From Myxococcota bacterium (GTDB lineage: Bacteria; Myxococcota_C; UBA6777): DNA of 64,000 nt. The position numbers were made by a program, and so were the translations under genes. The notes beneath the pieces are model-generated. The model did no database searches. It was not told where the DNA came from and saw nothing but the letters and a program-made list of their open reading frames with translations. This document shows positions 18,448 to 36,527 of this stretch, piece after piece (the stretch's first letter is position 1; each line of letters opens with the position of its first letter). The DNA is taken from positions 1 to 64,000 of the forward strand of contig JAKLKB010000010.1 in NCBI GenBank assembly GCA_023150835.1, in the 5' to 3' direction.

Positions 18448-19575
18448 CTAACGTCGTTTTTTGCGGCGCGGTTTTTTCTTGGCTTCGAGTTCTTTAGCGA
18501 GTTCTTTTTCTTTGAGTTCGGTGAGGTTTCGGATCTTCATGCGGACGTCCATCTTCATGCCCTCGTCGCCGATCTTGCGTTGGATAAAGTCTTTGAAGGT
18601 GTCAAGGGCCTTTTCGCGTTTTTCGGCGGCGTCACGTTCAAGAGAGGCTTTTTGGGCCTTGTCTTTTTCGGTGATGGCCTGAACGCGGCTTTTTTCATAC
18701 CAAAGGTCGTAGGCGAGACCTTGGTGAAAGAGTGCGCCGGCATCGTTGGGTTTGTTGGCGAGGATCTTTTGGGTGGTGTTGACGGCTTGTTCGAACTGGT
18801 GCTGTTTGATGAAAAGAAGCGCGAGCAGGTTGTAACTTTGTTCGTTGGCGGCTTGATTTTGGATGGCGGAGAGGAGGGCGGCTTCGGCCTTTGAGTAAAA
18901 GGGTTTGGCGGCTTCGGCGACGGGGACAAGGATGGTGCGAGGGGGTTCGGGTTCGCCTTTTTTCTTTTTCTTTTTTTTCTTTTTGTCGTCGTCCTCGGGG
19001 GGAGGGGTGGGATCGGGTGGAGGGGGTTCGTGTTCAGCGGCTTGATCGAGGTGGACGGAAGCGAGGCCGTTGTAGGCTTCGGTGTATTTGGGGTTGAGTT
19101 GAATGGCCTTTTGCATGGCTTCGGCGGCTTTGGGGAATTGGCGTGCGGATTGGTAGGTGAGGGCGAGTTCGTAGGCGTAGTTGGCGTCTTTTGGATTGAG
19201 TTCAAAGGCTTTTTCGTAGTGGGGGATGGCTTTTTGAAACTCTTTGTTTTTGACGTAGATCTTGGCGAGGTTGAGGTGAGCGCTTTTGTTGTTGGCTTCG
19301 AGGGAGATGCACTTGAGGTAGGATTGGATGGCTTCGGGCCACTCTTCGCTGGCTTGCTGTGCGCGCCCGAGCAGGTAGTGAGTGTGGGGATCGTAGGCGT
19401 AGAGTCGGACGGCTTGTTGGAGGAGGGTTTTGGCGTTGGTGTATTGCCCAGCGTTAATGCTTTCGACGGCTTCGTTGGCGATCCGTCGGGCGCGCCGTTG
19501 GTCCACTTTTTCGCAGCCGAGGCTGAGCCAAACGCTGCAAAGTAAGAGGAAAAGGGTGAGGCTTTTCGCGTACAT
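18448..19575 (-). CDS. TPR lipoprotein at the end of the glt-like cluster
   Basis: A 375-residue lipoprotein: lipobox LSLGC (Cys about 21), then about six TPR units (25-185). A low-complexity hinge of prolines, aspartates and about 11 lysines (about 190-215) is followed by more TPRs and a basic C-terminus (KKPRRKKRR). It is the last gene of the leftward series that includes the GltD-H-like proteins and follows the GltH-like barrel after 85 nt. No direct Myxococcus counterpart is obvious. The ATG at 19575 has AAGGAAAG upstream and opens the signal peptide. Confidence 0.8.
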   Translation of the reverse strand: MYAKSLTLFLLLCSVWLSLGCEKVDQRRARRIANEAVESINAGQYTNAKTLLQQAVRLYAYDPHTHYLLGRAQQASEEWPEAIQSYLKCISLEANNKSAHLNLAKIYVKNKEFQKAIPHYEKAFELNPKDANYAYELALTYQSARQFPKAAEAMQKAIQLNPKYTEAYNGLASVHLDQAAEHEPPPPDPTPPPEDDDKKKKKKKKKGEPEPPRTILVPVAEAAKPFYSKAEAALLSAIQNQAANEQSYNLLALLFIKQHQFEQAVNTTQKILANKPNDAGALFHQGLAYDLWYEKSRVQAITEKDKAQKASLERDAAEKREKALDTFKDFIQRKIGDEGMKMDVRMKIRNLTELKEKELAKELEAKKKPRRKKRR

Positions 19576-19660
19576 GGTATCTTTCCTTTGGAATGGATAA
19601 AACAAGGACGCGGAGATATCCGCGAGATATCGGGTTATCGGTGTGGTTGATGGGGTGGAA

Positions 19661-20275
19661 TCAGAAGTTGTAGGTTAGTGTGGGCATGAGGCCGATCCCA
19701 AGGCTAAGAACGCTGTCCGTGCCGGAGCTTTGGCCGAAGGTGATGGGGCGTAAGAGGCCGATGGCTTCGATGCCGACGGAGAGATGGCGTGCGCGAGTGT
19801 AGTAGCGCAAGCCAAGGCCGAGGTGAACGATCAAGCCGAGGTTGTTTTTGGTGTCGGGGAGGGAGAGGGAGACGCCTGCGCCGAGTTTGGCGTAGATGTA
19901 AAGTTGATCGAGGCGAACGAAGTGGATGGTTGCGCCGAGTTGAAAGAGAGAATCGCCGTTACCACCGCCTGCTTGGGGCTCTCCCGAGACGGCGGGTGCA
20001 AGGAAAGAGAGTTGGAGAGAAAAGATATCAGCGATATCGAATCCGATCTCGATACCACCGAGGGTTCCGACGAGGTTGGCTTGGGCTCCATTTTCGCGAG
20101 CGAGAGCAGAGGGTCGGAGAGCGAAGATATAAAGGCCGTAAGAGGCCGACATGAAGAAACCTTTTCGGACGTATGATTTGGGATCTTCTTCGAGGAATTG
20201 CGCGTTGGCGCGAGGGGTGAAGAGAGCGAAAAAGACGGAAAAGGCAAAGAGACCGAAGAGTATGCGCCGCAACAT
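19661..20275 (-). CDS. Outer-membrane beta-barrel protein (GltH-like position)
   Basis: A 204-residue protein with a signal peptide cleaved after PRANA (about residue 22), then alternating polar/aromatic beta strands, including GLYIFALRPSA and YIYAKLGAGVSL, ending in the C-terminal Phe (LTYNF) typical of outer-membrane barrels. It follows the FHA/TonB-like gene, the place of gltH in the Myxococcus cluster; GltA, GltB and GltH are small outer-membrane barrels of that machine. The name is inferred from fold and order only. The ATG at 20275 was chosen because it begins the signal peptide, although the frame extends further. Confidence 0.75.
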   Translation of the reverse strand: MLRRILFGLFAFSVFFALFTPRANAQFLEEDPKSYVRKGFFMSASYGLYIFALRPSALARENGAQANLVGTLGGIEIGFDIADIFSLQLSFLAPAVSGEPQAGGGNGDSLFQLGATIHFVRLDQLYIYAKLGAGVSLSLPDTKNNLGLIVHLGLGLRYYTRARHLSVGIEAIGLLRPITFGQSSGTDSVLSLGIGLMPTLTYNF

Positions 20276-20427: not shown

Positions 20428-23007
20428 TTAGGAGGGTTTAAAGAAGAAGGGATAGTTGACTTGGACGATACCGCCACCTTTGGGGGCAGGGAAGCGCATA
20501 TTTTTGACGCGCTGTGCGAGACATTCTTCGACGCGTTCGTTGTTCATGGTGGTTTCCTTGACGCTGGAGGTGGAGACCATCCCGTTGCCTTCGATTTGGA
20601 AGAAGACTTTGATCTTGCCTTGGAGTTTGGGGTATTTGTTGAGTTCTTTTTCGTAGCAGTATTTGATACGGCTGCGGTTGTTGTTGATTACGCGACGGAT
20701 GATCTCTTTGTCGAGCGAACCGAAGATAAGGGGCGGACCCGTCGAGACATCGACGCTTTGTTTACGCTTGCCTTTGAGGCGGCCTTGGCCCCAACCGCGT
20801 CCACCTTTACCGCCGCCACGTCCGTAGGTTCCGAGGTTTCCGACGCCTACGCCCAGTCCGCTTAAACCGCCACCGCCCATGCCACCGCCGCTTCGGACGC
20901 CGAGGCCGCCGTCACCCGAGGCATTACCGACTTTTCCACCGAGGAAGTTTCCGATCGCATCGGCATCATCGCCCCCAAAGCCTTTTGCGGAGAGGATCGC
21001 TCCATAAGAACTTTGGCCGCCGCCAAGAAGCCCGAGCATACCTTTTTGGCCGACTTTGTCGAGCAATTCTTTTTCGACTTGTTGCATATTGATCGGAGCT
21101 GTACCATCGGGGTTTTTCTCGATCTGGCCGGCTTTCTTTTGGATATTTTTGGGGATCTCGGTGGTTTTTTTGCCCATTTTGCCTTCGGTGTCTTTGGCAC
21201 GGGCGCCACCGCTTTCTTGTTTCTTTTTCTTTTCTTCTTCTTCTGGGGGTCGCACGATCAATTGGGCGAAGCGGTTGGGTTGTTTGAAGAAGCTGTCATC
21301 GAGGCCACGAGGAGCTTCGTCGGAAAGCAACATAAAGAGGACGGCAAGGCCGTGGAGCAAGAAGGATGCGCCCATCGCGCGGGCAAGAGCGAGATCGAGT
21401 TGGCTAAAGAGGCCGGGGACGATGCGTTTGGGGGCGGGAACAAAGCTGATCACGAAGTCAAGCTGCCCGAGGGTGAGGTTGACTTGGGATTGAGCAGGCA
21501 GGGCAAACTGGTGGCCGAAGTCGGTACGTTCGACTTTCGAGCTTTGTTTGATCTGCTCAAGCGTGAAGAGTTGATCCTTGATTTGGACCGTGCCTTCCAT
21601 TTGGGGGGTAAAGTTGACCATCAAGCGGTCACCTTTGGCCTCGATCAAGGTGAACGAGGTCATCTCGGCAGGAAGGGCGTCTGTGCTGAGCGAGAAGGTA
21701 TTTTTGCGAGATTCGCCGATGGTGATCTTTTTGGGGCTGTAGAAGTGAGCATGATCAAGGATGCGATCACCCCACATCACGCGAACTTCGAGGGCTTCTT
21801 GGGTATCGGCGTATTGGGCGTCCATGACGACGGGTTGTTGGGGGGCAGGGGCCGCGATGGAGGGTTGTGCAGCGATCGGAGCAAAGCCGCCCGTCGATTG
21901 GGGAGGATAGGGCGATTGTTGTGGAAAACCGCTCATGGGTTGGGCTTGTTGTGCATAGCCGCCGTAGGCTTGTGCGTTGGGGTCGTAGCCTTGGGGAGCG
22001 CCGTAGCCTTGGGGAGCGCCGTAGCCTTGGGGAGCGCCGTAGCCTTGGGGAGCGCCGTAGCCTTGGGGGGCTGAAAAGGCCTGTGCGTTGGGGTCGTAGC
22101 CTTGGGGAGCCGCGACTTGTGGGATTTGGCCATAGCTGGGTTGTTGTGAGGCGTAGGCTTGTGCGTTGGGATCGTAGCCTTGAGGAGCGCCGTAGCCTTG
22201 GGGAGCGCCGTAGCCTTGAGGTTCTTGGGTGTAGGCGACTTGGGGCTGTGCAGGTTCTTGGTACTGCATCGGGGCAGGGGCTTGGTAAGCGTGCGCTTGT
22301 TGTTCGGAAACTGCGGGAGATTGGGCCGTTGCTTCTTGGTATGCAGCTTCGCGCACCGCATAAGCAGCCGCAGCGTTGTGTTGGGATGTATCGGGTTCAG
22401 CGGTCTCTTGGGAGAGATCGGCCTCAAGGAGGGGATTGCGTGTGACGGAAGTGGACTCGAAGTTGGGTTCACCGCCAAGTCCAGCGAGAGGATTGTGGTG
22501 GTGTCCGAAATCGATGCCAGATGCCCCGACGTCTACACCAACGCTGCCGGTCATACCTGATGCGTCAGGTGTAAAGCCAACGTCTGCACCGAGGCTTGCG
22601 GGAGAGAACGCGGCTTCTGCGATAGGAGCGGGGGCTTCTGCTGCGGGGGCCGCACCTTTGACGTTGTAATTGCCGAGACGTGCTTGGCCGACGGCTTCTT
22701 CGCCGATGAAGATCTTGATGTTGGTATCGCCAAGGATCATCTCGTCGCCCGAGACGACTTTGGTTTTGTGGATGCGCTTGCCATTGACGCGGGTTCCTTT
22801 GGACGAACCCATGTCGATGACTTGGGCTTCGTCGTTGTCGAGGATCTCGATCACGGCGTGGATACGGTTGATGTGGGGGTCATCAAGGCGGAGGTTGACA
22901 GAGGCCAGCTTGCCGATCTTCACGATGCTTTCGTTGAATTCCTCGGTTCGCGGAGCTTGTCCTTCGCGTTCGATCAGGAGGAAAATTGGGGTTATGGGCT
23001 TTGCCAT
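20428..23007 (-). CDS. gltG: GltG/PglI-like FHA and TonB-like envelope protein
   Basis: An 859-residue inner-membrane protein. An FHA phosphothreonine-binding domain (about 25-95; SSKGTRVNGKRI) is followed by a linker with QGYGAPQGYGAP repeats (about 264-349), a second FHA-like beta region (about 400-520), one membrane helix (about 539-561), a Gly-rich periplasmic linker, and the AgmX/PglI C-terminal TonB-like domain (about 760-859; NNNRSRIKYCYE and RVEECLAQRVKNMRFP). This is the layout of Myxococcus GltG (PglI), which spans the envelope from the motor to outer-membrane partners. The 18-bp coding repeats at 21960-22070 are near identical. AAGGGAG precedes the ATG. Flanked by GltF-like and GltH-like genes as in Myxococcus. 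Confidence 0.85.
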   Translation of the reverse strand: MAKPITPIFLLIEREGQAPRTEEFNESIVKIGKLASVNLRLDDPHINRIHAVIEILDNDEAQVIDMGSSKGTRVNGKRIHKTKVVSGDEMILGDTNIKIFIGEEAVGQARLGNYNVKGAAPAAEAPAPIAEAAFSPASLGADVGFTPDASGMTGSVGVDVGASGIDFGHHHNPLAGLGGEPNFESTSVTRNPLLEADLSQETAEPDTSQHNAAAAYAVREAAYQEATAQSPAVSEQQAHAYQAPAPMQYQEPAQPQVAYTQEPQGYGAPQGYGAPQGYDPNAQAYASQQPSYGQIPQVAAPQGYDPNAQAFSAPQGYGAPQGYGAPQGYGAPQGYGAPQGYDPNAQAYGGYAQQAQPMSGFPQQSPYPPQSTGGFAPIAAQPSIAAPAPQQPVVMDAQYADTQEALEVRVMWGDRILDHAHFYSPKKITIGESRKNTFSLSTDALPAEMTSFTLIEAKGDRLMVNFTPQMEGTVQIKDQLFTLEQIKQSSKVERTDFGHQFALPAQSQVNLTLGQLDFVISFVPAPKRIVPGLFSQLDLALARAMGASFLLHGLAVLFMLLSDEAPRGLDDSFFKQPNRFAQLIVRPPEEEEKKKKQESGGARAKDTEGKMGKKTTEIPKNIQKKAGQIEKNPDGTAPINMQQVEKELLDKVGQKGMLGLLGGGQSSYGAILSAKGFGGDDADAIGNFLGGKVGNASGDGGLGVRSGGGMGGGGLSGLGVGVGNLGTYGRGGGKGGRGWGQGRLKGKRKQSVDVSTGPPLIFGSLDKEIIRRVINNNRSRIKYCYEKELNKYPKLQGKIKVFFQIEGNGMVSTSSVKETTMNNERVEECLAQRVKNMRFPAPKGGGIVQVNYPFFFKPS

Positions 23008-23127: not shown

Positions 23128-23403
23128 TTATAGGTCGTTCACGGATTGGATGATCCGTTCACGAAAGTTTTGTCGGAGTTGGATCAAACGTTGAAACTTC
23201 ACGTTTTTTCGGGCTTCGATGTATTCGCCGTCAGGTTTGGTCAAGTCGCCCGAGATGGTGTCGCTGCTGAAGTCGTACACGGTCTTCTTTTGGTAGAAGC
23301 GACCGCCGACTTTGACAGAACTGTCTTGGGCTTGTGGAGAGGTGGGGAGCGTCAAAGTGCTGAGTGCTGCGCAGGAAAGCCCAATCAAAAGCCAACGTTT
23401 CAT
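23128..23403 (-). CDS. Small periplasmic protein (GltF-like position)
   Basis: A 91-residue protein with a signal peptide (cleaved near PQAQ, about residue 26) and a short mature part. The first half is predicted to be beta (GGRFYQKKTVYDF) and the second a basic amphipathic helix (RLIQLRQNFRERIIQS). There are no cysteines after the signal. It lies between the GltE-like TPR lipoprotein and the GltG-like protein, the position of the small gltF in Myxococcus; the link is by order and size only. TAGGAG lies 6 nt before the ATG. Confidence 0.65.
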   Translation of the reverse strand: MKRWLLIGLSCAALSTLTLPTSPQAQDSSVKVGGRFYQKKTVYDFSSDTISGDLTKPDGEYIEARKNVKFQRLIQLRQNFRERIIQSVNDL

Positions 23404-23412
23404 CGAAAACTC

Positions 23413-23879
23413 CTACTCCATCGGATGCCTCGAAGGAGGCCCTGTTGTCTGCATCTTCAAACTATCGTTGAGGATGGTTTGTGTGCGCGGGCTGGCGAAA
23501 AGATCCAAGGCGGTGCGCGGGGTGCGCGAGTAGAGAGAAGAGATTCGCACGGTCGCTGTTGGATCAAAGAATCCCTGACGCCAGCAAGGCGTACCTGCGC
23601 GATAGTAAACGATCTGATCGTCGATGTGGAGACTTTTTTTGTGGGGAAGCAGGGAAGTGGTTGAGAAGATCGCTCGATCTCCTCGATACAAGGGGCGATC
23701 GCGGTGGTTTGTTCGTCTGTGTTTGAGTCGGTCGTGGGGGTTGTCCACCAAGGCAAGGCACGAAAAACAAAGGCACGGGCAGTTTGGAGCTTTGAATGAA
23801 CAAAAGCACGCCATTGCACGCCGTCGAGCGAAAAGCTCCAAAGCCACCAAAGGGGCGAGATGTGCAAGGTGGTGTTCAT
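23413..23879 (-). pseudogene. Unknown protein split by a -1 frameshift at an A7 run
   Basis: Two protein-like reading frames abut here. The 5' part begins at an ATG (23879) with AGGAA upstream and stays protein-like (HISPLWWLWSFSLDGVQW) up to CFPTKK. At that point the coding strand has seven adenines (plus-strand T7 at 23634-23640), and the continuation (SLHIDDQIVYYRAGTP through PTATVRISSLYSRTP) lies in the -1 frame and ends 10 nt before the gltF-like gene. Joined, they give about 154 residues. The frame upstream of 23879 is open to 24554, with a Pro/Ser-rich repeated stretch at about 24030-24190. Family not recognised. It may be a real mutation, a homopolymer error or programmed slippage. 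Confidence 0.5.
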
Positions 23880-24228
23880 GTTGCGCGTTCCTGTGCGTTT
23901 GAAGATGGCCTGTGTGTCTAAGGTATTGAGATGGAGAAGCCCGCCGCGAAGCGTGCCAAATCGTTGAACTGGTGGGCTTAGACAAAGGGGGATCAGGGAA
24001 GTTCCCAAGCAAATCGTTTTTTGTTCGGCGAGGGCAAATGCAAGAGGTTCGGTTGGATGGATGGGAGATTCAGCTCGGTAGACAGGATGTTGGTTTGGAT
24101 GGACAGGAGATCCGAGCGAATTGACGCGAGGTTCAGTCGGATAGACAGAGGATTCGGTCGAATGGATGGGCAGATCTGAGGGGATATCGGGGCGAGAATC
24201 GTGTGGCGGGATCGGGAGTGGGTGGGGG

Positions 24229-25584
24229 TTAGCTTCTTGGGGCAGGCTTTGCGCCTTCGGGGTTTTTATCTTCGGGCTTGTCGTCTGATTTTTTATCGTC
24301 GGGCTTATCGGGATCGCCTTTGTCAGGTTCCAGCTTGTCGGTCGAAAGATCTTTGGGAACGTTTTTGTCGATGTTGTCTTTTGCGTCGGTTTTTCGTGGC
24401 GCTGGTTTTTGTTGTTTGGCGAGTTTTTCTTTTTCTTCGGCTTCTTGCATTTTGAGGCGATCTTGCGACTCTTTGAGGAGTTGATACGCAGCGTGTTTCT
24501 CGCCGATACGCGAGCCTTGTTCGCCGATGTAGCGTCGAAGGCTGGTCTCTGCAAGCTTTGGTTTGTTCATGAAGCGGAGGTGAAGAACGGCGAGGTTGAA
24601 AACGCTGGAGGCATGGCCGGGATAGTATTTGAGCAGTTGTTCTTGGTAGACTTTTTCGGCTTCTTCAAACTTGCGATTGGCGCGTAGCGCGAGGGCATAG
24701 CCAAGGAGTGCTTCTTGGCTTCTTGGGCGGAGTTTCACGGCTTGTTGGAGGGTTGTGAGGGCGCGGGAGTAGTCGTGATAACGCAGCGCGAGCAAGCCGA
24801 GGTTCATTTGTGCGGAAAACAGGTTGGGATCTTCTTTGGCGGCTTCTCCAAAGAAGTACATTGCTTCGGGCATTTTTTGCTCGTTCATAAACGCGAGCCC
24901 TCGGATATTAAAGAGGCGCGCATCTTTTTTCTTGGTTTTCTCGGCCAGTTGGTACACCAAATGAACGATCTTGTACTTCTTTTGCTTGAGGTAGACGCCA
25001 GCGATTACGCGGTAGGCTTCGACGTTTTCGGGGTCAAGAGCAAGAATGCCTTGCGCCGTTTTGAGGGCATCTTCGTATTGGTTGTTGGCGACTTGCAGCG
25101 AAGCGAGGTTGATCTGCATCTCTGCTTTTTTGGCGTTTTGTGGATCGAGCCGAAGGTAGCGGTAATAGGTGCGCAGGGCGTTGTCGTGTTGCTTTTGTCG
25201 GACATAGAGTTGGACAAGCCGATAGGTTGCTTCGGGGTTTTTCTCGTCATTTTGTAAGGCTTGGCCAAGTTGACGTGTGGCGCGGTTATATTGTCCTGTC
25301 TCTTCGTAGAGAGCGGCCAGATTGAAGTGCGCCGCAGCGAGAGAAGGTTTTTTCTCGATGGCTTGGCGGTAGAGTTTTTCGACTTGTGCGTGGTCAATAC
25401 TTCCTGAGCGTTTGCCTTCTTTGTGGATACCGACAGCTTCTTGGTAGATCTCTTCTGCTGTCTTTTCGACCACGACATCACGTTGAGGAGGCGGGTCATT
25501 TTTGACGACTTTGGTGGTGCAGCCGATCGATAGAAGCCATGCACAACCCAAGGGAAGCAAGAGGTGCTTTCGCATCGCGTTCAC
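24229..25584 (-). CDS. TPR lipoprotein (GltE/AglT-like)
   Basis: A 451-residue lipoprotein with lipobox LSIGC (Cys about 22), then eight or more TPR units (about 45-370; e.g. AAAHFNLAALYEETGQYNRA), ending in a highly charged low-complexity tail of D/K/P (about 395-451). In Myxococcus, GltE (AglT) is a TPR lipoprotein encoded just after gltD, and here too it directly follows the large TPR gene. The GTG start overlaps the stop of that gene in a GTGA, so translation is coupled; GGAAGG lies 6 nt upstream of the GTG. Confidence 0.8.
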   Translation of the reverse strand: MNAMRKHLLLPLGCAWLLSIGCTTKVVKNDPPPQRDVVVEKTAEEIYQEAVGIHKEGKRSGSIDHAQVEKLYRQAIEKKPSLAAAHFNLAALYEETGQYNRATRQLGQALQNDEKNPEATYRLVQLYVRQKQHDNALRTYYRYLRLDPQNAKKAEMQINLASLQVANNQYEDALKTAQGILALDPENVEAYRVIAGVYLKQKKYKIVHLVYQLAEKTKKKDARLFNIRGLAFMNEQKMPEAMYFFGEAAKEDPNLFSAQMNLGLLALRYHDYSRALTTLQQAVKLRPRSQEALLGYALALRANRKFEEAEKVYQEQLLKYYPGHASSVFNLAVLHLRFMNKPKLAETSLRRYIGEQGSRIGEKHAAYQLLKESQDRLKMQEAEEKEKLAKQQKPAPRKTDAKDNIDKNVPKDLSTDKLEPDKGDPDKPDDKKSDDKPEDKNPEGAKPAPRS

Positions 25585-28500
25585 GGTCCACCTTCCTTCG
25601 TGCGCAAAGCAGCGTCATCCGCGACTTTTTTTCCTTTGGAGGGGGGCTCGCTCGGCGTTGGCGCTTGTTCCATCAGGGTGGAACTATAACGGAAGCCGCT
25701 GTCGGCCACCCCCGCAGAGGGGCGCTCTTCGATAAACTTGTGGTAGTCTTTGGGGCGGAGTTCTTGGAGGCGTCCGAGGGACTTAAAGGTCCATTCGTTG
25801 TAGACACTGGCATTGTGGGAGACCCGCAAGCTGCGCTGGTAGAATGTGACGGCTTGGGCTTCGTAAGGCGCGGATTGTTTGAGAAGTCCTTCTTCGTACT
25901 GCATCTTCAGTTTTTCAAGAAGGTTGGACATCAACTGTTTGCCTTGTGGGCCCCGAAGGAATCGTTTGGCAAGGGGGCGTCGGAACTTCCACGGAACTCC
26001 CCGAGATTTAAGGACTTCGATCAGTTTTTCCATGACGTTCTTTTCGGCTTCTTTGCGAAAATCGGGCGCGGCAGCACTGCCGATGAAGCGAGAATAGTCA
26101 AGGAAAAGCTCGCCGACCCGAAAGTAAGAGGCGATCCGCCAAGCGGGGTGCTTGTATTTTGCGACGACCTCGAACTTTTTGCTGGTTTTTTCCAAGGCTT
26201 TGAGTTTTTGTTGGAGAGTTTTCTTCATGGCATCTTGCGAGATGCCCGCTTTGAGTTGGATCTTGCGGTACTCAGCGAAGTCTTTTTCGGCATCCATAAA
26301 GCGGACATTGGCGGCAGCATCGATGGCATCGATGTTTTCTTTGTCTTTGTCAGGCAGGTTGTTGAAACGTCGAGGGATCAGCTCAAACTCTTTTTTGGCT
26401 TTGCTGACCAAGCGCTGGCGGTCATACACACGAGCGACTTCCATTTTGGCGTGAAGTCGTTGCCCAGCAGAGCCGTAGCCTTGTTTGGCGAATTCTTCCA
26501 TCATGTTGCGATAGCGGGAAAACTCGCCGTTGTCTTTGTGGTGTTGTGCGATCTTGAGGTAGATGGCGACAAAGGTCTTATCGTCTTTGCTTTTTTTGCG
26601 CTTTTTGATCAAAGTGATGCCAGTACGCATCAAGCGTGTGTAATGTGCCATCGCAGCGGCGTTATCACCCATGGCCTCGCGAAAGATTGCGGCTTGGATG
26701 ATGATGTCGTCGATCTTGGGATCTTTGGAATATTTGTTGGCGTATCGTTCGTAAAATGCGGCTGCACGGCTAAAATCTGCGCGACTCGCGTAGAGATCCG
26801 CAAGGCCAAGTACGGTATCTTTTTCAAATCGAGAACCCGGATATTTCTCCAACATCTCAAGGCGAAGGTTCAGCGCTCTTTCGGGTTCTTTGGCGTTGCC
26901 GTAGTGGATCGATGCGTTGAAGAGAGCCGTGGGACCGAGATTTTTGTTGTCAGGAAATTCACGAGCGATCTTCAAGAAACATTCTGCTGCGGGTGTGTAC
27001 TGTTTTTGCCGCACGATACTTTCGCAGATCTTCATCCCCGATCCGATGATCAAGTTACGCATCTCACCTTTGAATTTCCGATCGCCAAGATCGGGGACTT
27101 TGTAGAACTTCCATGCGGACTTGTTCAGTTTGTCCCATTCTTGTTGAAGCTGGTAGGTGTCGAGGATGAAGTGCGCGGAGAAGATCGCGTACTCGTGTTT
27201 GGGGTGTTTTTCGACAAGGAAGTAGAATTGGGGGAGGGCTTTGTCGAAGTGGTTGAAGTAGTAGTAAAGCAGCGCAGCTTTGTAGGAAACTTCGAGCGCA
27301 CGGTCGCCTTTGGCGTAGTATTTGATGTGATCTTCACAAGCATCAAGGAAGCTTTTGGCGATATCGGGCAGAGGTTTTTTCTCTTGAGCGCCTTTTTTCT
27401 CGGTGAGGTTTTCAGGATTGATCCGCTCTCGTTTCATCAATAAGTCGTACGCAAGGATGGTGTTGTATGAAGCATCAAAAGAGTATTTACCTTTTGGATT
27501 GCTTCGGTATACGAGGATGTAATTGTCTGCGGCTTCTTTGAATTGACGGGATTTGTACTGGATCTCGGCCAACCAAAAGCGCATCTCGTAGGCGTTGTCG
27601 TCTGTTGGGAAGACATCGAGGTAGATCTTGTAAAACTCACGGGCTTCGTCGAAAAAGTCCTGACGAAGGGTCTTTTGGGCTTCGTAGTGGCGATAACGAG
27701 CGTATTCGTTGAGTTGGGTTTTGACTTCGGAAACCGCTTCTTTGTATTGCTCGTCGTTGGCTTTGGTTTGGCTGAAAGACTTGACAAGACCGCCGAGTTT
27801 GGTGGCTTCGCGGATCGTGTCTGTTTTGGAGCGATCGGCGTCGACGGCGCGTGTGATGTAGAGCTGGTATTTGACGGTGATTGGATCGTCAGGTTGAAGG
27901 CGCATGAGTGTGTTGTAGATCGTGAGGATGGCGGCTGTTTTTCCTTGCGATCGATAGATACCACCAAGGTTTTGAAGCATACGAAGATAACTATCTTCGC
28001 CGCCGATCTCGCGGAATCGGCGCTCGGCGTCGGCAGCTTCGCCGACTTGGCTGTAGGCCAGTACCATGTCGCGGAGGGCTTCTTTGAGCAGGGCGAGGCG
28101 GCGACTGTTGCTACCTTTAAAGTTCTCGGCATCACGGGCATAGTTGATGACGGCGACGAACTTGTTGAGGGCGTCTTGGTAGCGGATCATGTTGTAATCG
28201 CACCACGCCACTTTATAGAGCGCAAAGCCGTAAATGCTGGTGTCGCGGAAGCGCAAGACCATCTCGTACTGTTGTTTGGCGTTTTTCACCTGCCCTTTTT
28301 CAAAGTAGTACTCTGCAAACGCGAGGTAGGCATTTGGAATAAAGGGACATTTGGGATAAGTTCGCGCAAATTTTTGGAGGAAGGGGCGGTAGACTCCCAA
28401 ACCTTTTTGGGTTTCGTTCATCTCGATCAGGTTTTTACCGAGGAAGAAGTAGGCCTCGCAAAGGCGTGGATAATCGGGATAATTGTTGATAATCTTGAAG

Positions 28501-29012: not shown

Positions 29013-30710
29013 TTAGCGGTGACACTCACCTTTGATGCGATAACGGTAATAGCCGAGTTCATCGATCCAATATTCGTTTTGGAAAGGCCAGAAGGTGTAA
29101 TCGTCAGCGACAGAGACGGAGATCAGCTTGCGGTCTTCGTTTTTTTTGCCTTTGACGCGCATGGTGAAGCCGCCCGATTCGTTGGCGGCTTTGTTGATAC
29201 GTTCTTTTTGGGCGCTGAGGGTTTCGTATTGGATCTTGAGGGCCTGTCCGATGAGTCCTTGGAGTTCGGTTTGGGCTTTGAGGATGCGTTCGCGAGCGCG
29301 AGCGCCGGCTTCTTTGATCTTCTTTATACGTTCTTCACGGAGGCGTTTTGCCATCTCAAGGCCGATGGCGGATTGTTGCCATGCTTGGCTGCTTTGTTGG
29401 ATGATGGCGAGTTCGCTTTCAAGTTCTTTGATATAAGAGAACAAGACTTGTAGCGGTTTGTCTTGGAAGGTGAGGTTGAGGATGCGCTGGAACATCTGCT
29501 CGCTTGGATCGTCCTCGAGTCCTGCGACTTTGGTCTTTTCTTCTTGTTGATTGCGCAGTTCACTGAGGGCCTTGTACATCGCTTCGTCGTTGGGGTTGCG
29601 TTGAAGGAAGCTGTTGAGCGAAGCAACCAGCGGGCGGTACTGGGAAAGATAATCTTGAACGATCTTTTTGACTTCTGTATAGCGGCAACGCTCGAAAAAG
29701 CTGACGGCTTGGAGGATGCCGACTTCGGGGTAGTATTCGTTTTTGAAGTAGGGGGAACGAAGAGTATGGATGATCCCAAGGGTTTCTTCGTACTTGCCGC
29801 GTCGCAAAAAGGCCCAAGACATCTCAAAGAGTGCATCCAGCCAACGGGGGCTATTGCGGGGGATGGCTTGGTACCAGTAGGTGGCCCCGCCGAAGTGTTT
29901 TGCGCTGTAGTGGATGCGTGCGATGCCCATGATCCCGAGTTCAAAGACGCGTTGGCGCATCTCTTTGTCTTGGATGCGCATGGCGGCGCGTGCAGCGCGT
30001 TTGAAGGCTTGAGCCGATTTTCCCGCGAGTTCTTTTCGGTCGGAGGTGTCATAGATCGCGCCGAGGATGTATTGTGCGCGGGCGTAGAATTCGGGTTTTT
30101 GAGAACGAACGCGATTTAGCAAGCGTTGCGCGAGGGGGAGGCGTTTTTCGAGCGAGAGGTCTTCGCGCAAGTAGTAGTATTTACCGAGAAGATAAAGCAA
30201 TTCGTCGCGGTATTGATTGGGGAAGTCACTTACGTTAAAGCTGCGCAGTTTTCCGAGGAACATCGACTCGTTTTGAAGTTTTCGACTGACCGTGATGGAG
30301 TAGGTGAGGGCGCGTTTGAAGTAGCGGTGGCTGGCCCCTGCGCGGATGATATCGGTGAAGTAGTCGAGTGCGGCGTGAAACAAGCCCATCCGATAGAGAG
30401 AGAGGGCCAGTTGGAACTGTGCGGCTTGGAAATAACGGGAACCAGCGGCGTCTTTAACGACACGGTAAAACATGAGGCTTGCTGCGGCGTAGTTTTTGTC
30501 TGCGTAGAAGGTGTTTCCACGTGCCATCTCGCGGCTACCGGCTTGTTTGTTGAGTTTGATCGGGCCGAACGTGAATCCCCTCCGCCCGGGGGGTTCTTGG
30601 TTGTTGTTTTCAAAGATATCAAGTTGGGCTTGGGCAGGGAAAGTGAAGCCCAAGCCCATGAGCGCGCCACAAAACAGCGCCAATCGTTTCCAAAGCGGAC
30701 GTGCCATCAT
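29013..30710 (-). CDS. Periplasmic TPR protein (GltC-like)
   Basis: A 565-residue exported protein. A signal peptide (cleaved after PAQAQ, about residue 28) is followed by TPR-like helical repeats (about 55-390), a conserved-looking helical region rich in E/K/R that should form coiled coil (about 440-520; EERIKKIKEAGARARERI), and a C-terminal short beta segment (YWIDELGYYRYRIKGE). It lies 24 nt before the GltD-like gene and 104 nt after an outer-membrane barrel gene; in Myxococcus GltC is a periplasmic partner of the GltA/GltB barrels, so a GltC-like role is inferred. AAGGA lies 8 nt before the first of two ATGs. Confidence 0.75.
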   Translation of the reverse strand: MMARPLWKRLALFCGALMGLGFTFPAQAQLDIFENNNQEPPGRRGFTFGPIKLNKQAGSREMARGNTFYADKNYAAASLMFYRVVKDAAGSRYFQAAQFQLALSLYRMGLFHAALDYFTDIIRAGASHRYFKRALTYSITVSRKLQNESMFLGKLRSFNVSDFPNQYRDELLYLLGKYYYLREDLSLEKRLPLAQRLLNRVRSQKPEFYARAQYILGAIYDTSDRKELAGKSAQAFKRAARAAMRIQDKEMRQRVFELGIMGIARIHYSAKHFGGATYWYQAIPRNSPRWLDALFEMSWAFLRRGKYEETLGIIHTLRSPYFKNEYYPEVGILQAVSFFERCRYTEVKKIVQDYLSQYRPLVASLNSFLQRNPNDEAMYKALSELRNQQEEKTKVAGLEDDPSEQMFQRILNLTFQDKPLQVLFSYIKELESELAIIQQSSQAWQQSAIGLEMAKRLREERIKKIKEAGARARERILKAQTELQGLIGQALKIQYETLSAQKERINKAANESGGFTMRVKGKKNEDRKLISVSVADDYTFWPFQNEYWIDELGYYRYRIKGECHR

Positions 30711-30814: not shown

Positions 30815-31510
30815 TTAGCTGGTATAGAGCGACGTGACGGGAAGCACAAAGCCAACACCAAAGGTTGCGACGAGGTTGTGGTTGAGCACACTCACGCTGC
30901 CGCCAAGTAGGTTCTGACTAAAGATGTAGTCACGGATGTCCATGCGCACAAAAAACCAGCTTGCGAGCATCCATCGCATACCGAGGCCAAAACTTACACC
31001 AAAGAGATCACTTCGGTTGGTGCGGATATACCCAGCACCCGCCGTAATGTAGGCGTCGATATCAACGATGGCGTTGCCGGCCTGAAACTTTCCGGGAAAA
31101 GGCGTCCAAACAAAGCTGCCAAATGCCATGATCTGAGGCCGCGCAAAGTCAGGGTTGATCTTGAGTGTCGTTCCATCGGGAGCAGGGGTGGTTCCTTCGC
31201 CTGCGCGCAAGCGATCAACGATGGTGGTATTGAAGCCTGTGCCAAACAGGCCCATCAGTTCGAATCCAAAGGATTCGGTTGCGTGGAAGGTGTAGCTTCC
31301 GCCGCCCATGATCACCTGCATAAAGCCGTCGTTGATGGAACCTGCGAAGATCCCACTGATCTCGTGGCGTCGCTTCTTTGTGATGGACTTGAGTTGAAAG
31401 ACGTCCACGCGATCTTCGGTGAGTGGGGCTGCGACGGCAGATGTCGGCAGTCCGAACCACAACAGGCATAGCGAGAGGAGTACGGAAGAGATCAAGCGTT
31501 CTGTGCGCAA
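30815..31510 (-). CDS. Outer-membrane beta-barrel protein (myxobacterial type, GltA/B-like)
   Basis: A 231-residue protein with a signal peptide (cleaved near AVAAP, about residue 28), then a predicted eight-stranded barrel with the pattern of the myxobacterial outer-membrane barrel family (VMGGGSYTFHATESFGFELMG region, FGVSFGLGMRWML, and FVRMDIRDYIFSQ near the end). The C-terminal residues are not aromatic, unlike the other barrel in this cluster. It precedes the GltC-like gene, as GltA/GltB genes neighbour gltC in Myxococcus. It starts at a TTG with GAGG about 9 nt upstream. Confidence 0.75.
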   Translation of the reverse strand: MRTERLISSVLLSLCLLWFGLPTSAVAAPLTEDRVDVFQLKSITKKRRHEISGIFAGSINDGFMQVIMGGGSYTFHATESFGFELMGLFGTGFNTTIVDRLRAGEGTTPAPDGTTLKINPDFARPQIMAFGSFVWTPFPGKFQAGNAIVDIDAYITAGAGYIRTNRSDLFGVSFGLGMRWMLASWFFVRMDIRDYIFSQNLLGGSVSVLNHNLVATFGVGFVLPVTSLYTS

Positions 31511-31639: not shown

Positions 31640-33064
31640 TCAATTGCCGGGTTTTGCGAGGTATACGACTTTGATCTTGGCCCCGGGCTGGGGTTGTTGT
31701 TTGGCGGCACCGCTGAGTTTGATGATGTGTTGGTTGCTGCCCGCTGCGGGGGGGATGTACAACCAACCATCTCCATAACATTTGTTGGCGGGTCCGCATT
31801 CTTGGGAACCGACGCAAGCTCCGTTGGCATTGCAATCGCCGACAATTGGGGCTTTTGCGATCTCTTCGACGCTACCGTTGGGTTGTGTCACGCGAACGAT
31901 CAACCCGTTCGGATTTTCTGGTTTTTTCGAGAGTACGATGTTTTTGAGGCGATCAATGATGGCTCCTGCGAAACGCAAAAGAGCTTCACGGAATCCGTTG
32001 TCATCCCCGCAGATCGGGAACCAGCGTTCGTTGGGATCGCCTGTACTTGTCTGCGATATGAAGTCAAACAGACGGAAACCTCCTGCAGCATCGGCATCTG
32101 GGGATTTACAGCCGCCGCATTTTCTTGACACAGGAACAGGAGTTAAATATTCGCATTTTCCGCCACCTGTGCCACATTCGCTATTTTGTGTGCAACCACC
32201 TTGCGGATCGATCGGGGTTTGTGTTCCGGGCTTGTTGACAAAGGGATTGCCAATCAAGCCAGACACGATCACTTCGCGTTTGAGGCTTTTGATGAAGTCG
32301 ATGTATTTGCTCACGCTGACGAGCTTGTCCATCTGCCCTTTTTCGGGTTGGCCGTCAGGGCCGATCAAAGGGTTGCCTTTGTCGTCCGTCAACGTCACGC
32401 TTGGGGGGATAAAGCAGGTGTCAGGTGTGCGCTTTTCGTCGAGCTTGCCTTCGTGCGAGCAATCGTCTTCGTCGGAGATGATAATGATGGCAAGCAAGGA
32501 ACCTTCGCGTAAAAAGCCCTTGTTGTCGATATCCGCGAAACCTCCGTTGGCGCTGTTGCTGAGCGCGGCTTTGATGGCTTCAAGGTGGCGTTCAAAGTTG
32601 GAGCCTTTGGTGCCGACGGCTGCGTTTTTGGTGAAGGCTTCGACGATTTGTTTGGTGGTAAAGCTGGAGGTGATGATCTTGGGGGTGCCGGGATCGGCTT
32701 GAACGAGACGTCCCCAGCCCTTGGGGTTAAAGACTGTGTCCATGTCTGTGGTCAAGATGCCGATTTGGAAGTCTTTGACATCTTTGTTGAGCAATTCTTG
32801 GATGAAGCGCTCGAAGTTGTTGCGAAGTTTGGTTTGTTCTTCGGCCATCGATCCCGAACTATCGATAAGAAAGAGGATGTCAACGCCTTTGTCGGCACCT
32901 TGGCTGCCGACGTCTTCGGGGACGATGTAAGTGTTGTTGGGGAGAGATTGTAGCGGATAAGAGTTGCAGCCCACCACAACAGGAGCGAAAAGCAGGCCAA
33001 TCAGCCCGACAATCCGAAAGAACGAGGGCCATTTTTGAGAGCGACGAGCGGCTTGGAGTCTCAT
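31640..33064 (-). CDS. von Willebrand factor A-domain lipoprotein
   Basis: A 474-residue lipoprotein with lipobox VVVGC (Cys about 33) and a VWA domain (about 60-290) with an intact metal-ion-dependent adhesion site (FLIDSSGSMAEEQ, i.e. D-x-S-x-S) and a conserved ISDEDDCSH segment. A Cys-rich stretch (about 300-340; GGCTQNSECGTGGGKCEYL) and a beta-rich C-terminal region with four more Cys follow. Such proteins bind ligands or surfaces through Mg2+. It is the first gene of the leftward glt-like series, 129 nt ahead of the barrel. The ATG at 33064 was chosen over an in-frame start at 33118 because it fits the signal peptide. Confidence 0.85.
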   Translation of the reverse strand: MRLQAARRSQKWPSFFRIVGLIGLLFAPVVVGCNSYPLQSLPNNTYIVPEDVGSQGADKGVDILFLIDSSGSMAEEQTKLRNNFERFIQELLNKDVKDFQIGILTTDMDTVFNPKGWGRLVQADPGTPKIITSSFTTKQIVEAFTKNAAVGTKGSNFERHLEAIKAALSNSANGGFADIDNKGFLREGSLLAIIIISDEDDCSHEGKLDEKRTPDTCFIPPSVTLTDDKGNPLIGPDGQPEKGQMDKLVSVSKYIDFIKSLKREVIVSGLIGNPFVNKPGTQTPIDPQGGCTQNSECGTGGGKCEYLTPVPVSRKCGGCKSPDADAAGGFRLFDFISQTSTGDPNERWFPICGDDNGFREALLRFAGAIIDRLKNIVLSKKPENPNGLIVRVTQPNGSVEEIAKAPIVGDCNANGACVGSQECGPANKCYGDGWLYIPPAAGSNQHIIKLSGAAKQQPQPGAKIKVVYLAKPGN

Positions 33065-33388
33065 GGTTTCTTGGCTCCATCCCAATGAAGGACAGTCAAA
33101 CGTAAAGCGCCGAAACACAAAGCGAATGAAATCGTCGATACAAAAACAAGTGTTGATTCAAGCAGATACGACGAAGGCGCAAAAAGCATCCACATCATAA
33201 ACCATTCAAACCACCTTGGCAAGAGCGTTGATATTTCGCTTTCTGGGTGTCTCTTGTGGAGGGGCGTGTGTGGAGGGGCGTGTGCGGTTGGGGTGGTTCG
33301 AGAAGGGGGGACAGGCTGTCGTTGTGAATATCTACTTTGAAAACAGCCGTTTAAGTGAATAGAGAAGGGGGGGTGATGTATTTCGTGC

Positions 33389-33553: not shown

Positions 33554-33958
33554 ATGCAGGGCTTTCGGTGGTTTCTTCTGGTGATGCTGATGGGCGTTGG
33601 TGTGTATGGAGCGGGTTGTGGTGGTTCAGAAGTCGGAAAGCGTTGTAGTCTCAACGAAGAAAACATCAAAGAGCTTCAGAGATTAAGTGCTTCGCCGAAC
33701 AACGCTGCGGTGTTGTTGGAACCGTCTTTTGAGTGTGAGACCGGACTTAATTTTTGCATTGGTTCTGGTTACGACGAACAAAAGAAAGCCAACCTCGGCT
33801 ATTGTTCCAAAGTGTGCGCAGTGACAGAGGACTGTCCAAAAGACTTTTCGTGCTCAGACTTTTTCCCCGTTCCTTCGCAAAGTTTGCCTGCATCCGTTCC
33901 GCAATCGATCAAGGATCTTTCAGGAAAAAAGCTCTGTGTGCGCAATAGCATTCCGTAA
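33554..33958 (+). CDS. Small Cys-containing lipoprotein
   Basis: A 134-residue lipoprotein with lipobox GAGC (Cys about 23). The mature part carries seven further cysteines (KRCSL, FECE, NFCIG, GYCSKVC, EDCPKDFSC, KLCV), in the C-P-x-x-F-x-C style common in secreted proteins of Myxococcota. Function unknown. AAGGAG lies about 12 nt upstream of the ATG with an A-rich spacer; the frame is open further upstream. It is divergent from the VWA lipoprotein and upstream of the GltJ-like gene, separated from it by a hairpin. Confidence 0.75.
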   Translation: MQGFRWFLLVMLMGVGVYGAGCGGSEVGKRCSLNEENIKELQRLSASPNNAAVLLEPSFECETGLNFCIGSGYDEQKKANLGYCSKVCAVTEDCPKDFSCSDFFPVPSQSLPASVPQSIKDLSGKKLCVRNSIP

Positions 33959-33990: not shown

Positions 33991-34091
33991 ACTTGTGTGG
34001 CTCGATCTTTGTGGAATGCTGGCCTTTTTGAAGGCCACACCGATCCAAGGCAGGACGATCACAGAGACTCGAACGAAGGAGAGGCGCGAGA

Positions 34092-36527
34092 ATGAAGATT
34101 CGCTGTGAAAGTTGTGGGGCGAAGTATTCCATCGCTGACAACTTGCTCAAAAAAACGGTCACCAAATTTCGCTGTAAAAAGTGTGGCCATGTGATGTCTG
34201 TGCAGACTCCCGATGGGGAGGGTGGAGATCACGATGACCTCGCAAACCTTCCCGATGCTCCGAGTTCGGCGATTGACTTTCCTGAGGAAAGCACACAAAT
34301 CGGCCAAGTGTCGTCGCAGGGTTGGGCTCCCGCAGGCGCGCATGATCATGCGCACGCTTATCACGGCGGTTATGATGAAAATATGACCGCCGCGCAAGCC
34401 TACGAAGAGGCCGCAGATGCGGCGTATGGCGATCCTGCTGCGCAAGACTACTACGCACAGCAAGCCAACCAAGCGGCTGGCTACCAAGACTACGAAAGCG
34501 CGGCAGGGGCGTATCCTCAAGACGATATGTACGGTGCCACCGGTCTTTTCTCTGCGGACAATGCCGACTGGCAAAATGTGATCAACGAAGCACAAGCCGC
34601 ACAAGAAGAGGATATCTACGCAGGCATGGACACCAACGTGTCGCGGGCTGCTCACGAAGAAAGTTACAGCGAAAGCGACGAAGCGGTCGATGATGAGTTT
34701 GATCGCGCCTTGCAAGAGCGCGAAGAAGAGTTGATGCCACGTAAGCCGATCCGTCAGGATTATAGCGACATCGCTCCAAACCATCAGGAACAAGGTATCG
34801 TGCCGCTGAGCATGGCACGCCAAGAAGTCCAAGAAGCCGGCAAAGAAGAAGTCAGCACCAAGGTCTTCAACATCAACGCCCTTGAAACCTTGCGATCGGA
34901 ACGCGAAGCTGCACGCAAAGAACGCGAACAGCGCACCAAAGGCAAACAACCTGATCGCAAAAAAGCTCCTGCTCCCGCTTCTGTCGGGATCGCCGAAACC
35001 AAAGAACCCCCCGAATGGTATGTGATCGAAAATGAAGAACAGGTGGGGCCTTTGAGCAAAGCCGAGATCCGTGATCGCCTCAAACGCGGTGCTCTTGACG
35101 CCGAACATTACATCTGGAAAGAGGGCCTCCCCGAGTGGAAGCCCATCCAAGAAGTCGCTGCCCTTGCTGAAGTTCTCAAACAAGTCGAAGACGAAAAAGT
35201 CGGCAAGCCCAACGGTTTGTCTGTTGCTTCAAGCATCCCTGCCCCGTCCAGCGGTAATCTTGGGGCCATCTCTTTTGCTCCACCCGGAGCCAAGCCTGCT
35301 GCCTCGATCGCGGAACCACCCAAAAACAACGATCTTCGGGCATTGGCCGGTGGAATCGCCGAAAACAAGCCTTCTACGCCCAAGCGTCCGACCTCGATGG
35401 CGGCTGCTTTGCTGCAAGAAGAGCCTCCTCCTCCGCTTGCTCCCTCGGGTGGGTTTGGCGTTCTTGGTCCTGCTGTTCCTGATATCGCTGCCCCTGCTGG
35501 AACGATGACAGGCGGATTTCAAGGCTTCGGATCTCCCCAACCTACGGGGGCTTTTGCTTCTTCTCCTGTTGGATTTGCTAGTCCTGCTCCTGCGCCTTTT
35601 ACAGGTTCGCCATTCGACAAAGAAAAAAAGAGCAATCTTGGTCTGATTGTTGGTTTGTCGATCGGTGGAACTTTGCTGCTTGGTGTGGCGATCTTTCTCG
35701 GGATCTATTTTGTGATGAGCGGACCCAAAAATGATCCCACCGTCGCCCAGCTACAGCCCGGCATGAACCAAAATATCCCATCCCAACAAGTTCCCTCGCT
35801 TCCTGTTCAACAGCCGCCTCCTCCCCCTGTTCCCGGACCTTCCGCCCCTCTTGCACAAAATACTCCCGCACCTTCCGCGACTCGCACCCAACCCGAAAAG
35901 CGCAGCGAGCCCGAAGAACGCAGCGAGCCCGAAGAACGCAGCGAACCGACCGCTCGCCGCAAAACCCGTCGTGCTGTTCGGCGTAGAACCCGCGCTCCAC
36001 GACGACGCACAGCCTCCGAACCCCGCGAACGCGAAGCGACCGAACCTCGTGAAGAACCCGCAGCACGGCGTCCCAGCGGCGATGATCCACCCCCTCCACC
36101 CCCCCCGCCCTCGGGGGATGATCCACCCCCCCCTCCACCCCCCGCTGCGACGGGGAATAGCAAAACAGGACTCGATAGCGGTCTTGGAAACTTGCTTGGT
36201 GGCGGAGGAACTGATCCCGCACCTCGTCGTGCAGAGCCGCCTCCCCGTCGTGCGAGCGTCCCCGAACAACTCACGAAGTCTCAAGTTGCCCGTGTAATTC
36301 AAAACAACGCAGAGCAGATCAGCGGTTGCCAAGATCGCTACGGAAAAAGTGTTCGCAGTATCCGCGTAAGCTGGACCATTAAACCCAGCGGTATGCCCAC
36401 AGGGATCTCGGTCGACGGAGCCTCTGGATCGTTTGAGAACTGCGTCAAAGGCAAGATCCGAAACTGGCGTTTCCCCCGCTTCTCTGGATCTCCGATGGAG
36501 ATCGGTGGCGTCCCCTTCCAATTCTAA
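34092..36527 (+). CDS. gltJ: GltJ/AgmX-like protein (zinc ribbon, GYF, TonB-like)
   Basis: An 811-residue inner-membrane protein. A zinc ribbon (residues 5-37, C-x-x-C ... C-x-x-C) is followed by a long acidic/Ala-rich linker, a GYF_2 domain (about 307-356; WYVIENEEQVGPLSKAEI), a single membrane helix (about 513-545), a periplasmic Pro/Arg/Glu-rich stalk, and the AgmX/PglI TonB-like domain (about 715-811, with a Cys pair at ISGCQ and ENCVK). This is the GltJ (AgmX) architecture; in Myxococcus the cytoplasmic zinc ribbon and GYF parts govern MglA-dependent assembly of the gliding complex. It is encoded apart from, but near, the gltD-H-like genes and convergent with ftsY. GGAGAGG lies upstream of the ATG. 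Confidence 0.85.
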   Translation: MKIRCESCGAKYSIADNLLKKTVTKFRCKKCGHVMSVQTPDGEGGDHDDLANLPDAPSSAIDFPEESTQIGQVSSQGWAPAGAHDHAHAYHGGYDENMTAAQAYEEAADAAYGDPAAQDYYAQQANQAAGYQDYESAAGAYPQDDMYGATGLFSADNADWQNVINEAQAAQEEDIYAGMDTNVSRAAHEESYSESDEAVDDEFDRALQEREEELMPRKPIRQDYSDIAPNHQEQGIVPLSMARQEVQEAGKEEVSTKVFNINALETLRSEREAARKEREQRTKGKQPDRKKAPAPASVGIAETKEPPEWYVIENEEQVGPLSKAEIRDRLKRGALDAEHYIWKEGLPEWKPIQEVAALAEVLKQVEDEKVGKPNGLSVASSIPAPSSGNLGAISFAPPGAKPAASIAEPPKNNDLRALAGGIAENKPSTPKRPTSMAAALLQEEPPPPLAPSGGFGVLGPAVPDIAAPAGTMTGGFQGFGSPQPTGAFASSPVGFASPAPAPFTGSPFDKEKKSNLGLIVGLSIGGTLLLGVAIFLGIYFVMSGPKNDPTVAQLQPGMNQNIPSQQVPSLPVQQPPPPPVPGPSAPLAQNTPAPSATRTQPEKRSEPEERSEPEERSEPTARRKTRRAVRRRTRAPRRRTASEPREREATEPREEPAARRPSGDDPPPPPPPPSGDDPPPPPPPAATGNSKTGLDSGLGNLLGGGGTDPAPRRAEPPPRRASVPEQLTKSQVARVIQNNAEQISGCQDRYGKSVRSIRVSWTIKPSGMPTGISVDGASGSFENCVKGKIRNWRFPRFSGSPMEIGGVPFQF

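Follow-up and report, generated by a model that had tools for sequence, protein, structure and literature searches.

The window, a 64,000-nucleotide stretch from the genome of an uncultured bacterium (Myxococcota_C; UBA6777), contains at positions 18448–36527 a single leftward run of genes encoding a VWA lipoprotein, an outer-membrane barrel (GltA/B), GltC, GltD, GltE, GltF, GltG, GltH, and a TPR lipoprotein. Beside this run, and oriented rightward, are a gltK/cglC homolog and gltJ. The features, with protein sizes taken after trimming of start codons, are as follows.

18448–19575, − strand: TPR lipoprotein, 375 amino acids (aa), lipobox LSLGC; kin to GltE-type TPR lipoproteins, a lineage-conserved extra component.
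19661–20275, − strand: GltH/CglE-like outer-membrane barrel, 204 aa (NF033755, 67.7 bits, E 1.1e-18; cut-off 70).
20428–23007, − strand: GltG-like inner-membrane transducer, 859 aa (NF033760, 442 bits, E 4e-132; cut-off 650).
23128–23403, − strand: GltF/CglF-like small exported protein, 91 aa (NF033764, 89.5 bits; cut-off 90).
About 23404–24228, − strand: non-coding spacer between gltE and gltF (codon-phase test against genome G001).
24229–25584, − strand: GltE-like TPR lipoprotein, 451 aa (NF033758, 105.9 bits, E 2.4e-30; cut-off 225).
25581–28991, − strand: GltD-like periplasmic TPR protein, 1136 aa (BLAST and position between gltC and gltE).
29013–30710, − strand: GltC-like periplasmic protein (TPR), 565 aa (NF033756, 374 bits, E 1.2e-111; cut-off 450).
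30815–31510, − strand: single GltA/GltB-type outer-membrane barrel, 231 aa (TIGR04565, 88.8 bits; cut-off 60).
31640–33064, − strand: VWA lipoprotein with MIDAS, 474 aa, candidate surface adhesin (alignments, predicted fold), occupying the first-barrel slot.
33554–33958, + strand: GltK/CglC-like Cys-rich lipoprotein, 134 aa (NF033754, 24 bits, E 3.1e-5; cut-off 60).
34092–36527, + strand: GltJ-like protein, 811 aa (NF033761, 139 bits, E 2.8e-40; cut-off 450; PF13717, PF14237).

All ORFs named in a first-pass annotation of this DNA were found at the place, in the order and, once start codons were trimmed, at the sizes given there. Its reading of the run as a Glt-type complex in conserved order is borne out: NCBIfam Glt/Cgl models are specific matches for gltC, F, G, H, J, and K (E 1e-132 to 3e-5), the neighbors are conserved in the lineage, and profile searches against Glt families did not place the FHA and TPR proteins in unrelated families. 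The GltG-like protein has an FHA domain (PF00498), a transmembrane segment, a Gly-rich stretch, and a TonB-like (AgmX/PglI) tail (NF033768, 110 bits on the tail), while the GltJ-like protein consists of a zinc ribbon, GYF_2, a transmembrane segment, and a TonB-like tail. GltD is 27.7% identical to Citreicoccus GltD over 980 columns (321 bits). Only the barrel passes its NCBIfam equivalog cut-off; GltC, E, F, G, H, J, and K miss theirs, and by sequence these proteins are relatives of the named equivalogs and not the equivalogs themselves. The gene list was less complete than first supposed, as the gltK/cglC homolog had been overlooked. NF033754 is its sole NCBIfam match, its homolog in genome G003 matches the same model (E 1.3e-4), and its position, divergent from the VWA-gltC operon, is conserved. 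A promoter scan gave fewer matches than in shuffles and did not enter the interpretation.

The first-pass annotation also listed a VWA lipoprotein, a terminal TPR lipoprotein, and a frameshifted ORF as possible marks of a lineage-specific version of the machine. Both lipoproteins are indeed lineage-conserved, and the VWA gene also lies beside gltC in Myxococcota. The third is non-coding spacer, since substitutions relative to the congeneric G001 show no codon-phase bias (17/17/10 on the three phases), unlike those in gltD (20/16/210). Indels of 7 and 52 bases separate the two spacers. We also considered a gene or the relic of a second GltG at this position, but the spacer lacks coding signal and does not match the truncated GltG copy found there in G003. 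There was no Rfam match in the spacer; a tRNA-Met was the only one in the window.

The gene order of the locus is more than chance, since three further genomes of the lineage carry the whole run (a fourth has part of it, up to a contig edge) and the order gltD-E-F-G-H is that of Myxococcaceae (PMC3169522). GltC is present in all five lineage genomes, and gltJ occupies the same divergent position in G003. Homologs of the terminal TPR lipoprotein adjoin gltH in G003 and G004; next to gltH in the scanned Myxococcaceae loci there was no comparable gene, and the matches there were GltE.

The outer-membrane part of the locus departs most clearly from the Myxococcus arrangement. The lone barrel matches both GltA and GltB of Citreicoccus, and the MIDAS-bearing, integrin-I-like VWA lipoprotein fills the gltB slot, an arrangement that is new here. 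As a separate observation, a single GltA/B barrel counts against a Glt complex of the Myxococcus xanthus type. The VWA protein carries a lipobox and a DxSxS...T...D MIDAS on a predicted integrin-I/VWA fold, and the residues of both motifs (Cys51, D86, S88, S90, T124, and D216, numbered on ORF 31640–33118) are invariant in eight homologs. In a structure comparison, integrin alpha-I domains head the list (Z 15.8 over 190 residues) for an AlphaFold model built from 8 sequences (pLDDT 66.1), which replaced a poor 4-sequence model (pLDDT 59.6). Because Pfam detects the domain at a sub-threshold level only (0.018), the assignment draws on alignment, fold, and context. When the PDB was searched by sequence with this profile of the VWA family, nothing matched.

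The best-scoring NCBIfam model for this protein is a Bdellovibrio MIDAS adhesin (E 4.5e-11), which raises the possibility that the locus encodes a predation machine, with the VWA protein presented as a prey-binding adhesin, much as Bdellovibrio employs Bd0875 at its point of invasion, and with movement as a secondary function. As described in excerpts of PMC11003981, Bd0875 likewise has a lipobox and the MIDAS fold needed for prey invasion, and the genomes are large with many VWA proteins. However, within the MIDAS core the match spans just 73 residues, its score lies far under the cut-off (42.5 versus 700), and those excerpts link Bd0875 to no Glt cluster. We regard predation as very unlikely to be the primary function.

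Among VWA proteins that work with the outer-membrane module of Glt, CglB is known best. It is an outer-membrane lipoprotein and a focal adhesin of M. xanthus (PMC13104615, PMC4488436). Searching the reference genome with the VWA profile for CglB retrieved VWA proteins, some of them CglD-like, but none could be identified as CglB, and we saw no NCBIfam CglB match. By analogy, we propose that the window protein may be the operon-encoded counterpart of this adhesin, in a CglB-like role.

How general is the linkage? Of 44 Glt/Nfs loci in Myxococcota, 11 carry a VWA gene directly upstream of the barrel(s) or of gltC; for comparison, the host's own genome has about one VWA match per megabase. Single-barrel Glt loci also occur in G065, G066, and G068, and the VWA/single-barrel/gltC arrangement is seen in three Myxococcota families. 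The VWA gene accompanies single-barrel Glt in all four lineages with such loci and adjoins none of 14 two-barrel Glt loci. Given its place in the first-barrel slot and the mutual stabilization of GltA and GltB in M. xanthus (PMC4488436), a single barrel may need another partner, and the VWA lipoprotein could be a periplasmic factor that assists the assembly or quality control of the barrel and GltC and stands in for the second barrel's stabilizing role. We consider this improbable, as the VWA gene adjoins two barrels in seven Nfs-type loci, the MIDAS is invariant, the predicted fold is that of an integrin I-type ligand-binding domain, and CglB itself is a surface adhesin (PMC13104615).

As the first-pass annotation had noted, the motor and MglA are absent from the window, and both are elsewhere in the genome (G000). 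An AglR homolog (43%) and AglQ and AglS homologs are on contig C134 together with a core Glt-like cluster; a solo AglR is on C21 and a solo AglQ-like ExbD on C137. That the only complete AglRQS set sits in another Glt-like cluster counts against a firm assignment of a motor to the window's complex. The switch genes mglBA are on C42 (MglA 85% identical to a Myxococcaceae MglA; MglB, 57%). A GltI-like TPR protein of 3739 aa, unlinked to the window, is encoded on C148 and is collinear over 1939 residues at 28.6%, C-terminal end included. Glt, Nfs-like, and core clusters coexist in one genome. Among these three Glt-like clusters, GltJ, GltK, GltH, and the VWA protein are found together only in that of the window, and neither GltH nor VWA was found beside the second cluster.

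In a tree of GltD, GltE, and GltG, the window groups with Myxococcaceae Glt (96/97), the host's second cluster groups with a separate Nfs clade, and the core clusters form a clade of their own (100/100). The GltC tree agrees in placing the window with Glt (support 92), although on its own it leaves the second cluster without a resolved position. GltC-model scores are 374 for the window, 179 for the second cluster, and about 140–255 for most Myxococcota Nfs-type loci. AU tests rejected the alternatives to window-in-Glt (p 0.003–0.018).

These results bear on whether the complex, although Glt-like by ancestry, serves, as Nfs does, for surface transport of an exported coat of polysaccharide or protein and not for gliding. 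Nfs and Glt have nearly all parts and one motor in common (PMC3858216), some bacteria that are not known to glide carry core Glt-like clusters (PMC3169522), and with three Glt-like clusters in the host, one or more may transport material. However, it is a different cluster of the host that falls with Nfs, and a single clade of window, Nfs, and cluster 2 was rejected (p 0.0175). Moreover, the window cluster is the one with GltH and the VWA protein and with GltJ and GltK, which belong to the gliding set and are both absent from Nfs (PMC3169522, PMC3858216), and the genome carries MglA/B and the GltI-like protein. A transporter is therefore an unlikely account of the window cluster. The existence of Nfs, a paralog that has nearly the same parts and does not glide, nevertheless counts against the gliding reading.

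The trees also bear on the history of the machine. Luciano et al. traced GltI/J to the Myxococcales ancestor and gave GltH/K a later origin (PMC3169522), and Wartel et al. called the Glt/Nfs duplication recent (PMC3858216). Since AU tests rejected both a recent duplication within the lineage (p 0.003) and one internal to Myxococcota, the Glt/Nfs split is old, or the genes were transferred. According to the genome set, the present lineage belongs to a phylum other than that of Myxococcaceae, and it has GltH–K; our tree revises the stated history. Soil myxobacteria use this machine to glide over surfaces, and its presence in a distant lineage, with a putative adhesin gene in the operon, suggests a greater age and a different course of assembly than has been supposed. 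A tentative scenario, which we put forward as somewhat less than an even bet, is that VWA/single-barrel/gltC is an old Glt outer-membrane module with a same-operon adhesin, that the Myxococcus arrangement of two barrels with CglB elsewhere is derived, and that the Glt/Nfs duplication, rather than being recent and myxobacterial, predates the split between this lineage and Myxococcota.

We think that the locus probably encodes an envelope-spanning, Glt-type force-transmission complex, with the motor and MglA/MglB supplied from elsewhere and the VWA protein displayed as an adhesin. On the model of the homologous M. xanthus machine, the TonB-like transducer GltG would be pulled by an inner-membrane proton motor of the AglRQS type, encoded outside the window. 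GltJ and the GltI-like TPR protein would lie on the side of the cytoplasm, and MglA/MglB would act as the switch. Once the parts had assembled, GltC, GltD, GltE, and GltF could relay force across the periplasm to a module in the outer membrane that consists of GltH, the lipoprotein GltK/CglC, and one barrel of the GltA/B type. This module would display the VWA lipoprotein at the cell surface, where it may grip the substrate by its MIDAS metal site, in the role that CglB has in M. xanthus. The moving complexes would then drag the cell forward or carry surface material; gliding by the host, as read from the genes of an uncultured MAG, would be the outcome we favor. An active question in research on bacterial gliding is the way in which the Glt complex retains its surface adhesin. 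A candidate adhesin that is encoded in the same operon and replaces the second barrel offers a genetic and structural handle on this attachment. The barrel, the VWA protein, and GltC are open to co-expression and to solving of their contacts.

The closest known system is the Agl-Glt gliding machinery of M. xanthus (gltA-K, aglRQS; PMC3169522, PMC4488436), with which the window has in common homologs of gltC, D, E, F, G, H, J, and K, the gltD-E-F-G-H order, and a gltK/cglC divergent from the barrel-gltC operon (gltBAC in M. xanthus), and the host genome the GltI-like protein, the AglRQS-type motor, and MglA/MglB. Because one TIGR04565 barrel lies beside gltC instead of two, the window complex is a variant, not the M. 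xanthus type itself. It further differs in that G1 and G2 form one locus, the operon encodes a VWA lipoprotein and an extra TPR lipoprotein, GltI is unlinked, and the proteins have diverged. Nfs (nfsA-H), which moves spore-coat polymer (PMC3858216), resembles the window in having GltA-H homologs in one cluster in the same order, and some Nfs-type loci of other Myxococcota also have a VWA gene upstream of the barrels; it differs in lacking GltI, J, and K and in its position in the trees. The core complex of Gammaproteobacteria and others (gltC-D-E-aglRQS-gltG; PMC3169522), represented in the host by the C134 cluster, has GltD, GltE, and GltG homologous to those of the window, but includes the motor and lacks GltF, H, J, K, and VWA. 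Of the individual adhesins, Bd0875 is alike in lipobox and MIDAS VWA fold but is a weak match in sequence. CglB and the window protein have in common a lipoprotein signal and a VWA domain, on which the likeness is drawn rather than on direct sequence homology; the gene for CglB lies apart from the glt clusters and that for the window protein within the operon, and joint action with the outer-membrane barrels of Glt is proposed for both.

All of the ORFs that the first-pass annotation assigned to a Glt-type envelope complex are there, with the order and sizes it gave. Specific NCBIfam models match GltG (442 bits), GltC (374 bits), GltJ (139 bits), CglF, which is GltF (89.5 bits), and CglE, which is GltH (67.7 bits); GltE scores 106 bits amid generic TPR models, and the barrel matches TIGR04565, a myxobacterial outer membrane barrel family (88.8 bits). 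Nearly all of these scores miss their equivalog cut-offs, in some cases by under 3 bits. Pfam domains are FHA in GltG and a zinc ribbon and GYF_2 in GltJ. As GltD matches no NCBIfam model of its own, its assignment relies on position and on a 321-bit blast match to the homologue in Citreicoccus, which served as the Myxococcaceae reference genome in place of M. xanthus.

The gene list needed two changes. One gene had been overlooked:

33554-33958, + strand, Cys-rich CglC/GltK-like lipoprotein (134 aa), between the VWA gene and gltJ

The sole NCBIfam match of this protein is CglC (E 3e-5), a model also matched by its homologue in a related genome, G003 (1e-4), and by a Citreicoccus protein encoded divergently from gltBAC (186 bits). 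Since cglC (gltK) and gltBAC also diverge in M. xanthus (PMC4488436), the locus unites the M. xanthus clusters G1 and G2, which are separate in that species. Conversely, the "frameshifted ORF" reported between gltE and gltF is not a gene: compared with the congeneric genome, substitutions show no codon-phase bias (17/17/10, versus 20/16/210 in gltD) and gaps break the frame. In G003, the site of this non-coding spacer holds a truncated second GltG of 469 aa without an FHA domain (L085:9501-10910).

The host phylum is represented in our genome set by five genomes of a single family; the host MAG is 7.56 Mb and 93% complete, and the window covers bases 1-64000 of an 81-kb contig. VWA-barrel-gltC-D-E-F-G, together with gltH and the gene for the TPR lipoprotein, is kept as a run in the congeneric genome, where it is spread over two contigs, and in G003 and G004; in G002, barrel-gltC-D-E is visible as far as its contig ends. 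Contig ends also cut short some of the other loci compared. In G003, the order of gltH and the TPR gene is reversed, cglC-gltJ and the VWA operon diverge, and gltJ neighbors a 1196-aa ORF. In the window, its neighbors are ftsY and smc. The FtsY homologue (36576-38144) carries about 14 near-identical KPESKVE repeats in its N-terminal part, a low-complexity charged linker preceding the SRP54 domains. Elsewhere in the window, a 1060-aa ORF (52075-55257) has no Pfam match at 1e-5, and two sulfatase-family proteins (952 and 713 aa; 58963-63959) lie side by side, adjoining fatty-acid desaturase and phosphatidylserine decarboxylase genes.

The VWA protein (31640-33064, - strand) has a lipobox, and its MIDAS residues D86, S88, S90, T124 and D216 (numbered on the untrimmed ORF, 31640-33118) are invariant among eight VWA homologues. 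Its predicted structure, of moderate confidence (pLDDT 66), best matches integrin alpha-I domains (Z 15.8, 190 residues, 3.4 A). The region after the lipobox begins alike in the VWA proteins of the window and two other Myxococcota genomes (G065, G066). In the 44 Myxococcota loci whose flanks were long enough, we typed the position upstream of gltC. Of the 18 Glt-type loci, 4 have a VWA gene directly upstream, as do 7 of the 26 Nfs-type loci; as the host genome has about one VWA-profile match per megabase, the chance expectation is well under one. Among Glt-type loci, VWA accompanies a single barrel in all four lineages (window, G065, G066 and G068) and adjoins none of the 14 two-barrel loci. 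With the two-barrel loci conservatively counted as 12, a Fisher test gave p 5e-4, although the loci are related and not independent. In G063, VWA adjoins gltC with no barrel detected. Because two Nfs-type loci (L304 and L305, from G063 and G065) have one barrel and no VWA neighbor, the association is limited to Glt-type loci. On the GltC tree, VWA falls on early Glt branches, with seven changes overall.

How old is the Glt/Nfs split? A tree built from GltD+E+G (29 rows, 2112 columns) groups Myxococcaceae Glt with the window and its relatives (bootstrap 96, SH-aLRT 97), and Nfs with a second host cluster on C176 (95/93). This second cluster contains a barrel and gltC, D, E, F and G; neither GltH nor VWA turned up beside it. 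AU tests, whose p values are optimistic since the groups were defined after the tree was seen, rejected as single clades the window with cluster 2 (p 0.003), these two with Nfs (p 0.018) and Myxococcota Glt with Nfs (p 0.006). The GltC tree (58 rows) places the window on the Glt side at 92 and does not settle cluster 2; the alignments behind the trees are short or divergent. From these placements and rejections, the split appears older than the divergence of the host lineage from Myxococcota, which departs from the "recent duplication" wording of PMC3858216. Alternatively, transfer between the host lineage and Myxococcota could have given these groupings. GltH, now found in 134 of 144 Myxococcota genomes, makes the restricted distribution of the 2011 survey outdated.

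Motor genes lie elsewhere in the host genome. An AglR-type ExbB with AglQ and AglS is encoded within a core cluster, gltC-D-E-aglRQS-gltG (C134), which joins the core clade of the GltD+E+G tree together with a Citreicoccus cluster that mglBA immediately precedes (G032:C49, L084:1517-2595), an arrangement that hints at an old link between MglA and core clusters. The host mglBA operon is on C42 (MglA 85% and MglB 57% identical to Citreicoccus). A solo AglR-type ExbB (C21, L077:2382-3116; 67% identical to the core-cluster copy) and, on another contig, a solo AglQ-like ExbD (C137, L186) may represent a second, split motor of the Glt complex. A 3739-aa TPR protein on C148 is collinear over its last 1939 residues with Myxococcaceae GltI (28.6% identity).

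In M. xanthus, the chain runs from motor through GltG, periplasmic TPR proteins and barrels to a surface adhesin (PMC3169522, PMC4488436, PMC13104615). If carried over to the host, force would pass along the same chain, with the VWA protein, the element particular to our proposal, as its putative surface-binding end. The VWA protein is clearly alike in kind to CglB.
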